DNA of 64,000 nucleotides from NCBI RefSeq assembly GCF_028368935.1, contig NZ_JAQNDK010000003.1:1178001-1242000 (forward strand), in the 5' to 3' direction. The notes under the pieces were generated by a model. That model was given only the letters and a program-made list of their open reading frames with translations. It had not been told where the DNA came from and did not search any database. The position numbers and the translations under genes were made by a program. The first letter of the stretch is position 1, and each line of letters opens with the position of its first letter. This document shows positions 24,496 to 29,544 of the stretch, piece after piece. This DNA comes from Sorangium aterium. GTDB lineage: Bacteria; Myxococcota_A; Polyangia; Polyangiales; Polyangiaceae.

Positions 24496-25011
24496 GGCGT
24501 GCTGCACTGCTTCGAAGGAGCGGGAAGACGCTGGAAGTCGCGGGCGGATGCGGCGCGAGCCACGAGCGCGAGCGCGCGAGAAGCAGGCCCTCCGCTCGGG
24601 CGACGGTCTAGCACGGTGCGCCGCGCGCGCGGACCCCGCTCCGCGCACCGCGAGCGGAGCGATGGGATCGCGGCTCGGGCGGCGTCGTAGCGGGTAACCG
24701 CAGCGGGAAGCGCGAAGCGGCCAAGGCAAAGCCGAAACCCGAAGCCGAACGACGAGCGACGTGAGCAACGCGTGACGGCTCGCTGTTGGCTCGCGGTCGC
24801 TGCTCGACTTCCTCACCACGCCGTACTAGAGTCGCGGCCTCGGACTGACCTGGCACGGGTCGCGGTGCTCGGTCGCTGTCATTGGTCCTCGCAGCCTCCG
24901 TTCAAGGGGCGCGAGGCGGCAGCTCTCCGTGATCGAACCCTCTCCACAAGGAGGGCGCGGTGCCGCGGCGTACCTTCCGCCCTTGCTCAGGAGGGGCTGT
25001 CCTCCAGCCCG
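24496..25011. other. 516-bp divergent intergenic region
   Basis: This separates the glycosidase (minus) and the DEAD-box gene (plus). I see no gene. A run of short A-rich motifs (GAAGCGCGAAGCGG, AAAGCCGAAACCCGAAGCCGAA) lies at 24709-24750. The helicase leader contains GAGGGCGCGG and GGAGGGGCTGTCC segments near the start. Long 5' leaders are common for cold-inducible DEAD-box genes, but no specific element can be named. Confidence 0.4.
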
Positions 25012-26472
25012 ATGTCCATGCAATTTGCCGATCTCAAGCTCATCGAACCGCTGCTCCGCGCCATCGAGGCCGAGGGGTACAGCGCCCCGACGCCCATCCA
25101 GCAGCAGGCCATCCCGCCCATTCTCGAGGGCAACGACCTCCTCGGCTGCGCGCAGACCGGCACGGGCAAGACCGCCGCGTTCGCGCTGCCGATCCTGCAG
25201 CGCCTCGCGCAGAGCGGCGGGTCGAAGCAGGGCGGGCTCCGCGTGCTCGTGCTCACCCCGACGCGCGAGCTCGCGGCGCAGGTCGCCGAGAGCTTCACCA
25301 CGTACGGCAAGAACCTCGGCCTGCGGACCGCGGTCGTCTTCGGCGGGGTGGGGCAGCGCCCCCAGATGGAGGCGCTGCGCCGCGGCGTCGACGTGCTCGT
25401 CGCGACGCCGGGCCGGCTGCTCGATCTCTGCTCGCAGGGCATCGCCCCGTTCGGTCGGCTCGATACGCTCGTCCTCGACGAGGCCGATCGGATGCTGGAC
25501 ATGGGGTTCATCCACGACATCCGGCGCGTGCTCGCGATGCTGCCCGAGCGCCGGCAGACGCTCCTGTTCTCGGCCACGATGCCGCCGGACATCCTGAAGC
25601 TCGCGAACAGCATCCTGCGCAGCCCGGTGCGCGTCGAGGTCGCGCGGATCGCCACGACGGCCGAGAACATCGACCAGCGGGTGGTCTTCGTCGAGCGCGG
25701 CGACAAGCGCGCGATGCTGGAGCACGTGCTCAAGGATCCCGCGCTCCGCCGGGCCATCGTGTTCACCCGCACCAAGCACGGCGCCAACCGCGTGGTCCAG
25801 CAGCTCAGCCGTGCGCGCATCGAGGCGGTCGCCATCCACGGGAACAAGTCCCAGGGCGCGCGCGAGCGGGCGCTCGCGAGCTTCAAGCAGGGGACGACGA
25901 GCGTGCTCGTCGCGACCGACATCGCGGCGCGCGGCATCGACATCGACGACATCTCGCACGTGATCAACTACGACCTCCCGAACATCCCGGAGAGCTACGT
26001 GCACCGCATCGGCCGCACGGCGCGCGCCGGGGCGTCCGGGGTGGCGCTCTCCTTCTGCGACAGCGAGGAGCGCGCCTATCTCGCCGACATCGAGCGCCTC
26101 ATCCAGAAGCGCCTCCCGCTCCTCGCGGACCCCGGGGTTCCGGTCTTCCAGATCGATCCCAGGCCCGCATCGCAATCGCACGGGCAAGCTCGGCCGCAGG
26201 CGCAGGGCCGGCCGCAGGGACAGGGCCGTCCCCACCCGCAGGGGCAAGCTCGGCCCCAGGGACAGGGTCGCCCCCAGGGGCAAGCTCGGCCGCAGGGACA
26301 GGGCCGCCCGCACCCGCAGGGGCAAGCTCGGCCCCAGGGGCAAGCTCGGCCGCAGGGACAGGGCCGCCCGCACCCGCAGGGGCAAGCTCGGCCGCAGGCG
26401 CAGCCTTCCGCGCAGGCGCAGCCCCCGGTGCGGCCGCAGCCGCGGCACGACACCCCTCGCTTCGAGAACTGA
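25012..26472 (+). CDS. DEAD-box ATP-dependent RNA helicase with Gln/Pro/Arg repeat tail
   Basis: The 486-aa protein starts at ATG 25012 (a second ATG at 25018). All SF2 motifs are present: Q motif [11 protein letters not shown] (25-35), AQTGTGKT (47-54), PTRELA (83-88), TPGR (132-135), DEAD (156-159), SAT (187-189), then [18 protein letters not shown] and [10 protein letters not shown]. This is the RhlE-like core of about 380 residues. The last 95 residues are a repetitive basic tail built from RPQGQ and RPHPQGQA units, a likely RNA-binding or condensate-forming extension. It probably remodels RNA or ribosome precursors. Downstream is a strong hairpin, so it is likely transcribed alone. Confidence 0.93.
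26185..26400 (+). repeat. Tandem repeats encoding the helicase tail
   Basis: The DNA repeats blocks built from GGGCAAGCTCGGCC, CAGGGACAGGG and CCGCACCCGCAGG in varied order. This gives a mixture of short and long periods. The near identity between copies points to recent slippage or unequal exchange. Confidence 0.8.
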
Positions 26473-28414: not shown

Positions 28415-28510
28415 AGGTCGCGCGCGCGTGCCTCGCGATCGGCGCGGCGGCCGGGGTGGTGGATCGGCCGGATTTACGGCAAGCTCATGCGTGGCGGGAG
28501 GACAGACGCC

Positions 28511-28828
28511 GTGAGCGACCTGAAGAATCCGGATCCGATGAGCCTGCGGGTGGGTGACTTCCTCGTGAAGGTGGTGCCCGTCGGCGAGACGACCGACGCC
28601 CTCGATACCGAGGCGAACCGCGAGCGGGCGCAGCGGGCCGAGGAGGACCAGCGGGCGGCCCAGTTCGGCGCGGGCGGCGAGGGGGCAGGGGAGGCCGCAC
28701 AGGAGGCAGCGGAGGCAGCCGTGGACGAGGCGATCGAGGAGGCGCGAGCGCGCTTGACGGGCGCCGGCGAGGACGTGCCGATCTTGCTGCGCGATCCCGT
28801 GACAGGAGCGGCGTTCACGATCGAGTGA
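28511..28828 (+). CDS. Small acidic Ala/Glu-rich hypothetical protein
   Basis: GTG 28511 is preferred because GGGAGGA lies 9 nt before it; an in-frame ATG at 28487 would add 8 residues. The 105-aa product has a short ordered start (MSLRVGDFLVKVVPVGETTDALD), then a charged Ala/Glu/Gln-rich helix likely to be a coiled coil, and ends in VPILLRDPVTGAAFTIE. Unrecognised. It lies 96 bp after the membrane protein, on the same strand. Confidence 0.5.
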   Translation: MSDLKNPDPMSLRVGDFLVKVVPVGETTDALDTEANRERAQRAEEDQRAAQFGAGGEGAGEAAQEAAEAAVDEAIEEARARLTGAGEDVPILLRDPVTGAAFTIE

Positions 28829-29170
28829 CGGAGGGAGGCACCGTCCATCGGGCGTCCCTGCGCGCCACGGCTGCGCGTGGCGCCTCGTTCCCACACGCAC
28901 CTCGACCGCGATGGAACGGCCTTCTGGCGCCTGCTCTCCGTGACTCCCCTCCTGAGCACGCCCGCTTCACGGGGCCCTGTTCGGCCAGGGCGGCAGCGAT
29001 GGCTGCCGTTATCGTGGATGTTCCTCTGTTCGGTTCGGCCGTCCATCCGCTCCGTCCGGAGCCCTGTCCGCTCCCGTGGAGGAAAGCACGGCGCTCCAAG
29101 TCTTCAATATTGCTCCGATCCGCTCAGGGAGTTACTCCACTTCCCGCAACGACTGACCGAGGGGAGAGCC
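28829..29170. other. 342-bp stretch without a supportable gene
   Basis: Frames on both strands are open, but none has a start with a ribosome-binding site or a protein-like composition. It must hold the promoter and leader of the Met-rich gene; an A/T-richer patch around 29100-29116 is the only candidate. Confidence 0.4.
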
Positions 29171-29485
29171 ATGATGAACATGCCGATGAGCGCGATGCCG
29201 ATGATGCCGATGATGGGCATGATGCCGAACATGATGGGCGGCATGATGCCGCATATGATGGGCATGATGCCCAACATGATGGGCGGCATGATGCCGCATA
29301 TGATGGGCATGATGCCGAACATGATGGGCATGATGCCGATGATGGGCATGATGCCGAACATGATGGGCGGCATGATGCCGAACATGATGGGCATGATGCC
29401 GAACATGATGGGCGGCATCATGCCCGCGATGATGATGCCGAACATGATGGGCATGATGATGCCCGGCATGAGGATGGCGGCCTGA
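29171..29485 (+). CDS. Methionine-rich repeat protein (54% Met)
   Basis: The 104-aa product starts at ATG 29171 behind GAGGGGAGAGCC. By my count 56 of 104 residues are methionine. The body is an imperfect repeat of about 14-16 residues: GMMPNMMGGMMPHM. Only Gly, Pro, Asn, His, Ile and Ala interrupt it, and the end is PGMRMAA. There is no signal peptide, Cys or acidic residue. Met-rich segments bind Cu(I) in copper-handling proteins, and the two His would fit that; the absence of export signals is a problem for the idea. Because the DNA repeats, other frames are also open (a His/Asp-rich frame and hydrophobic antisense frames). This frame is chosen for its start, ribosome site and stop. Confidence 0.55.
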   Translation: MMNMPMSAMPMMPMMGMMPNMMGGMMPHMMGMMPNMMGGMMPHMMGMMPNMMGMMPMMGMMPNMMGGMMPNMMGMMPNMMGGIMPAMMMPNMMGMMMPGMRMAA

Positions 29486-29544
29486 ACCAAGGAACGTTGG
29501 CGAGCGGCTCAACCCCGATGGTCGGGAGCGGGCGCTCCTGATCT

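Follow-up and report, generated by a model that had tools for sequence, protein, structure and literature searches.

The Met-rich reading frame of the window, i.e., of the whole 64,000-nucleotide stretch of DNA that was analyzed, is, judged by comparison with its orthologues, a real protein-coding gene and no DNA oddity. By the same kind of sequence comparison, its product is a short, domain-less member of a larger Met-rich family, most members of which carry a Cys domain, and the usual form of this family is a two-gene module in which the Met-rich gene lies tail-to-tail with the gene for an XRE-cupin factor. We propose that the Met-rich protein may be a cytoplasmic store or sink of sulfur, held as Met, under the control of the XRE-cupin regulator, and we give this reading a probability of roughly 40%. 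The features of the locus, which is part of a 13.47-Mb genome, are the following:

29010-29019, forward strand: TATCGTGGAT, second upstream element, conserved among the A-type genes by sequence comparison
29066-29085, forward strand: GTCCGCTCCCGTGGAGGAAA, upstream element common to the family members of this genus, a proposed regulator site
29110-29138, forward strand: candidate core promoter TTGCTC-N17-TACTCC, proposed by inspection
29161-29166, forward strand: GGGGAG, ribosome-binding site ahead of the ATG, assigned by inspection
29171-29485, forward strand: coding sequence of the type A member, 104 aa with 54% Met and the end MPGMRMAA, a Met-rich repeat without the Cys domain
29201-29463, forward strand: tandem repeat array, in frame within the coding sequence, with units such as MMGMMPN and MMGGMMPN

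The composition of the protein was determined by direct count, and this gave 56 Met, 16 Gly, 15 Pro, 8 Asn, 4 Ala, 2 His, 1 Ser, 1 Ile, and 1 Arg among the 104 residues, confirming the preliminary description of a protein with 56 Met and mainly Gly, Pro, and Asn besides. Cys was absent, and one Arg and two His were the only chargeable side chains. The start behind GGGGAG and the clean stop reported in the same description were likewise found, the stop codon being TGA, and the G+C content at third codon positions was 97%. By inspection, no export signal was evident in the protein, i.e., neither a charged n-region nor a cleavage motif, and this agrees with the earlier view of a whole Met-rich protein lacking such a signal. 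The claim that all six frames are open was wrong: across the ORF span, four of the six were open, with 29 stops in one forward frame and one stop in one reverse frame. The strand opposite to the Met-rich ORF contains a His-rich ORF of 126 aa (29132-29512), and this looks like a by-product of the ATG runs, since these read as CAT, for His, in a window with 72% GC. The non-random composition of the Met-rich ORF is obvious, and its frame is kept in the orthologues. The five neighbors scanned with Pfam were an SPW repeat, an unmatched ORF, an SDF symporter, a kinase, and an M23 peptidase, and neither Pfam nor NCBIfam gave a match for the window protein or four relatives. Just upstream of the Met-rich gene, at 28487-28828, lies a 113-aa ORF with no Pfam match and with a homologue (71% identity) in a single other genome among the six of the genus that were searched, and an ORF at 24772-26472, which by eye covers a DEAD-box-like helicase, has a long low-complexity repeat tail at its end.

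A protein search with the window protein missed the true orthologues in genomes G004 and G001 and returned other low-complexity repeats; most of its matches (G003, G004, G007, G014, G019, G055, and G056) were, on reading, unrelated repeats. Orthologues were therefore sought with DNA patterns, and the orthologous place was located through the neighboring SDF-symporter gene, which was matched in four of the genus's six genomes, counting that of the window. In G004, a Met-rich ORF of 147 aa with 81 Met lies beside the symporter gene in the same orientation, and the syntenic ORF of G001 has 124 aa and 70 Met, again in the same orientation and with one further gene in between. The contig of G005 ends at the syntenic place, and its homologue, at C1184, has a masked base and is cut by another contig end; G003 and G002 showed no SDF match at the threshold used and no Met pattern. 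For the three orthologue pairs, dN was 0.07, 0.12, and 0.15 vs. dS of 0.30, 0.34, and 0.32 (Nei-Gojobori, with repeats that align ambiguously), and dN/dS was well below 1 in all three, as far as these uncertain repeat alignments go. When the window was compared with G004, the upstream 180 bp were 86% identical, vs. 66% further upstream and 66% downstream; the values for G001 were 80% vs. 79%, the latter over 107 aligned bases only, and the upstream contrast fails for this genome. MMGMMPQ, the dominant unit of the family genes with a Cys domain (B type), was spelled with the codon sets GGC/CCG, GGG/CCC, and GGG/CCT in three orthologues, indicating that the protein was kept while the DNA changed. 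Orthologues with a kept frame and changed DNA, which had been proposed as a check on the gene, thus exist (G004, G001, and the recoded B genes). The suggestion of a low-complexity DNA element is not supported, because the repeat units of the syntenic orthologues are rearranged in number and order and the frame, the start, and the end MPGM[RK]MAA are nevertheless kept. Repeats of 3n length hold frames open by themselves and the His-rich reverse ORF is present, but a DNA repeat open by accident, or a gene on the other strand, is highly improbable in view of dN being below dS, the synonymous recoding of MMGMMPQ, the conservation of start, end, and upstream region in the orthologues, and paralogues that carry a Cys domain in the same frame as the Met repeat.

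Two further Met-rich genes, C1 (160 aa) and C5 (152 aa), were found in the window's genome, and a second A-type gene, of 119 aa, in G001. The C1 and C5 proteins have a conserved Cys-containing C-terminal domain and are hence of the B type. This domain reads roughly M[TS]CEM.K[DE]GM.CK......[MG]MDML..RCEAM.KMM..GMPMMMMCG.MPMMMC, and its conserved Cys columns were kept in 43, 43, 39, and 34 of 45 sequences, with Met as the commonest substitute in some of them. Such conservation suggests a specific fold or a ligand role for the B domain, beyond what a pure store would need. By inspection, the window protein and the B paralogues have in common a start like MMxMPMSxMPMM and the style of repeat, and the relation of A to B rests on these likenesses, since alignment statistics are weak and profile tools filter such sequence. 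The Met share across the family was about 40-57%.

Of 377 genomes sampled from the window's phylum, 9 gave a match to the Cys-domain profile; so did 63 of 298 from Pseudomonas, usually with two copies of the domain each, 4 of 297 from the Rhizobium family, and 2 of 385 from its class. A loose Met-pattern scan added, among the matches listed, Rhizobium rhizogenes, Ectorhizobium, a Microvirga plasmid, Pseudomonas inefficax, and Labilithrix. On genome contigs, the 118 loci among the matches listed included five family members (L105, L113, L148, L155, and L174), and the rest were, on reading, unrelated Met-rich or chance matches; the Met-rich ORFs at L119, L122, L152, L166, L171, and L199 seem to be unrelated to the family, and some of them begin, by eye, with what looks like a signal sequence. 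Forty-four plasmid records matched, and among the best 30 of these 44, 29 were annotated as 'hypothetical protein' and one had no annotation. The 32 pattern stretches in viral contigs included no family relative. A search of the open-access literature found no paper describing a Met-rich XRE-cupin-module family, and the family and its module appear to be new and uncatalogued.

Modeling of a B protein with AlphaFold2, from a five-row alignment, gave a mean pLDDT of 46.8 and a weak strand-strand-helix motif for the Cys domain. Folded as a single sequence, the window protein came out as one long helix with a mean pLDDT of 82.6, which we take to be an artefact of modeling without aligned homologues, because Gly and Pro are found in every repeat. 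Control by a riboswitch or another known RNA was rejected as well, with one tRNA-like Rfam match in ten family loci and all matches on or near the Met repeat below the gathering score. Length and gene context varied within the family. One orthologous B protein (L282, L281) ranges from 114 aa in G004 to 265 aa in G005, mostly through repeat number, and a Mesorhizobium plasmid (L213:7640-7798) encodes, beside the regulator, a 52-residue protein with the Cys domain and almost no Met repeat. In three genomes of one other genus (L060, L062, and L064; 939-1217), the B gene is convergent with a 91-aa gene with two CxxC pairs, and this partner is not the XRE-cupin regulator.

The partner regulators contain the Pfam domains HTH_3 and Cupin_2. 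Modules were counted by tblastn at E 1e-8 with two XRE-cupin queries, themselves taken from loci L174 and L031, and an XRE-cupin gene was detected in 21/21 Pseudomonas loci, 7/11 myxobacterial B loci, and 14/14 alphaproteobacterial loci. L213, L214, and L215 had been picked by the regulator and are hence outside the fair count, which is 11/11 for the alphaproteobacterial loci picked by the Met-rich gene. None was detected in 113 unrelated loci, which were shorter (at most 8 kb vs. about 14 kb for most family loci), or in 40 matched 14-kb windows chosen unseen at other places of the same Pseudomonas genomes. In every locus where both genes were found, they were convergent, with a gap of 25 to 1552 bp, measured to the match, and one myxobacterial exception of 5.7 kb. 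Across the six genomes of the window's genus, there are three XRE-cupin paralogues, the first two accompanied by a Met-rich gene in 7/7 loci and the third in 0/6. The third paralogue (L284, L285, L289-L292), present in all six genomes, adjoins a gene whose start resembles, by eye, a FAD-dependent NADH dehydrogenase. No Met-rich gene was found at L214, on an Azospirillum plasmid, where the XRE-cupin gene adjoins a 2-oxoglutarate/iron oxygenase gene and a gene for a transsulfuration-type PLP enzyme, with msrB about 5 kb off.

Next to A-type genes, an XRE-cupin gene was found at none of four loci, the window gene included, and this lack of an adjoining regulator stands against the store reading for the window gene itself; three XRE-cupin genes are located elsewhere in its genome. 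The upstream regions suggest a connection between the two. All nine regions first compared aligned over an element near GTCYGCTCCNNYGGAGGAAA, which upstream of the window gene has no mismatches, the pattern itself having been written from these genes. Five A genes and four first-type B genes had the element with 0 to 2 mismatches, three second-type B genes had a four-mismatch form, and the best site near the six third-type regulators had 5 to 7 mismatches. In the window's own genome, exact matches were confined to the window gene and C1, with none at one or two mismatches; at up to three mismatches, there were 31 sites in total vs. 32 in the control. The A genes and the first-type B genes co-occurred: of the six genomes of the genus, the same four have both. 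The second upstream element of the A-type genes, TATCGTGGAT in the window, reads TATTGTGGAT, TATCGTGGAG, and TATCATGGAC in other A-type genes. A scan for consensus promoters and terminators found no site. The shared element near GTCYGCTCCNNYGGAGGAAA and the co-occurrence of the A and first-type B genes suggest that the window gene and the regulator-linked paralogues may be under common control.

The sulfur reading draws on the neighborhood of the modules. In Shinella, msuE, a sulfonate ABC transporter, cysE, a sulfur transferase, and ssuD flank the pair; on Rhizobium plasmids, msuE, an LLM monooxygenase, and a gamma-glutamylcyclotransferase are near it, with tauA in part of them. Two SsuA-family proteins lie beside the pair in Pseudomonas inefficax, together with an SfnB-like protein below the cut-off, one alphaproteobacterial genome has SfnB next door above the NCBIfam cut-off (588 vs. 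430.9 bits), and another has an NtaA/DmoA-family monooxygenase near the pair. A match to a sulfonate-binding protein was found in 5/20 Pseudomonas loci vs. 0/40 matched windows (Fisher p 0.003), and a match to any of nine organosulfur references in 6/20 vs. 2/40 (p 0.013); these counts are not independent, because the references came from three of the family loci themselves and several of the Rhizobium and Pseudomonas loci are close relatives. The other Pseudomonas loci had no organosulfur match, and their neighbors, in those scanned, were mixed. Since no organosulfur match was found in 11 myxobacterial B loci or four A loci either, the sulfur link is carried by the proteobacteria.

SutR (YdcN) of E. 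coli is, like the partner regulators, a small HTH-cupin protein of the XRE-cupin kind, and it is not known to have a Met-rich partner. According to a reference title in PMC8464067, it is a regulator of sulfur utilization. Sulfur-starved bacteria avoid Met- and Cys-rich proteins, according to PMC8557817, and for this reason a Met store would be made in sulfur surplus, and the module would have to run opposite to the scavenging genes around it. In the mechanism that we propose, the XRE-cupin regulator would sense the sulfur state through cysteine, methionine, or a sulfonate-derived signal, and, with reduced sulfur in surplus, it would let the Met-rich protein be made. The protein would then take up sulfur amino acids in an osmotically silent, non-toxic form, and when sulfur is short, its proteolysis would set them free. 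The same regulator family would control the A-type gene of the window's genome in trans, via the shared upstream element. We infer four parts of this scheme: the binding of the regulator to the element, sulfur as the signal, the storage or sink function, and the cytoplasmic location. Still more tentatively, and with the odds somewhat against it, the family may represent a dedicated bacterial sulfur-reserve system in at least two phyla, built of a cytoplasmic protein with about 40-57% Met, often with cysteine, and a convergent XRE-cupin sulfur sensor; this would be a sulfur counterpart of the nitrogen-storing cyanophycin, which the window's genus would have expanded with domain-less, almost pure Met-repeat forms.

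A rather unlikely alternative is a cytoplasmic soft-metal buffer, in which clustered thioethers, and thiolates in the B proteins, would bind Cu(I) or a similar soft metal in the manner of a Met-based metallothionein. MxM and MM motifs have affinity for Cu(I) and are dense in the window protein, and the conserved Cys columns, with Met replacing some, fit this metal rival as well as the sulfur reading. However, Cys is absent from the window protein, thioethers by themselves bind metal weakly under the reducing conditions of the cytoplasm, and the conserved partner is an XRE-cupin factor and no known copper sensor. Among the five Pfam-scanned neighbors of the window gene there was no copper gene, and the annotation of eight family neighborhoods included no copper regulator, ATPase, or chaperone; the only copper links there were two loose ones, an SCO gene at the Microvirga locus and, in Mesorhizobium, a tyrosinase gene. 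SCO-like matches were found in 1/21 Pseudomonas loci vs. 3/113 unrelated loci. Nothing in this analysis points to copper specifically. The periplasmic copper and silver binders PcoE, SilE, and CopK have similar Met-dense motifs, but they have export signals, His content, and copper or silver operons, and none of these was seen here, the SCO and tyrosinase genes being the only exceptions in the gene context.

It is unlikely, too, that the protein is a sacrificial oxidant sink, whose Met would scavenge peroxide or hypochlorite and be recycled by Met sulfoxide reductases. Its Met density and the precedent of MrpX and BcrX (PMC8315932), Met-rich peptides of the MsrPQ hypochlorite defense that are proposed to be such sinks and have a dedicated regulator gene of their own, would fit this function, as would the msrB gene of the Azospirillum plasmid, though no Met-rich gene was found there. 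Yet MsrB matches were found in 0/21 Pseudomonas, 0/15 myxobacterial, and 1/113 unrelated loci, and in 1/14 alphaproteobacterial loci, that one being the source locus of the query. MrpX and BcrX are, moreover, periplasmic by a reference title in PMC8315932, encoded in an operon with msrPQ, and responsive to an ECF sigma factor, whereas here there was no evident export signal, no msrPQ among the five scanned neighbors, and an XRE-cupin partner.

Quite improbable is a low-complexity scaffold or condensate former with assembly switched by Met oxidation, as in the yeast protein Pbp1 (PMC8394241). The whole window protein is of low complexity and almost uncharged, and the Met-rich low-complexity sequence of the yeast ataxin-2, Pbp1, is comparable, but in Pbp1 it is one region of a large eukaryotic protein, with a lower Met share than the window protein. 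The gene neighborhood suggests no interaction partner or client, and the organosulfur context would be left unexplained. As for the sulfur store, the Met-rich seed storage proteins of plants (2S albumins, zeins) also keep sulfur amino acids in a dedicated protein, but they are unrelated, eukaryotic, and folded and have a much lower Met share.

The family presents a conserved two-gene module whose Met-rich protein is roughly one-half methionine; 63 of the 298 Pseudomonas genomes sampled have it, and it was also found in myxobacteria and rhizobia. The members scanned lack a Pfam or NCBIfam match, and the plasmid copies among the matches listed are mostly annotated as 'hypothetical protein'. Whether the protein is a sulfur store, a soft-metal buffer, or an oxidant sink, each function is testable in laboratory pseudomonads. 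If the sulfur store is true, bacteria would keep sulfur amino acids in reserve in a protein dedicated to this purpose, a kind of store of which the literature search found no bacterial example; if the metal or the oxidant rival is true, the family would join the known Met-rich metal or oxidant proteins as a variant.
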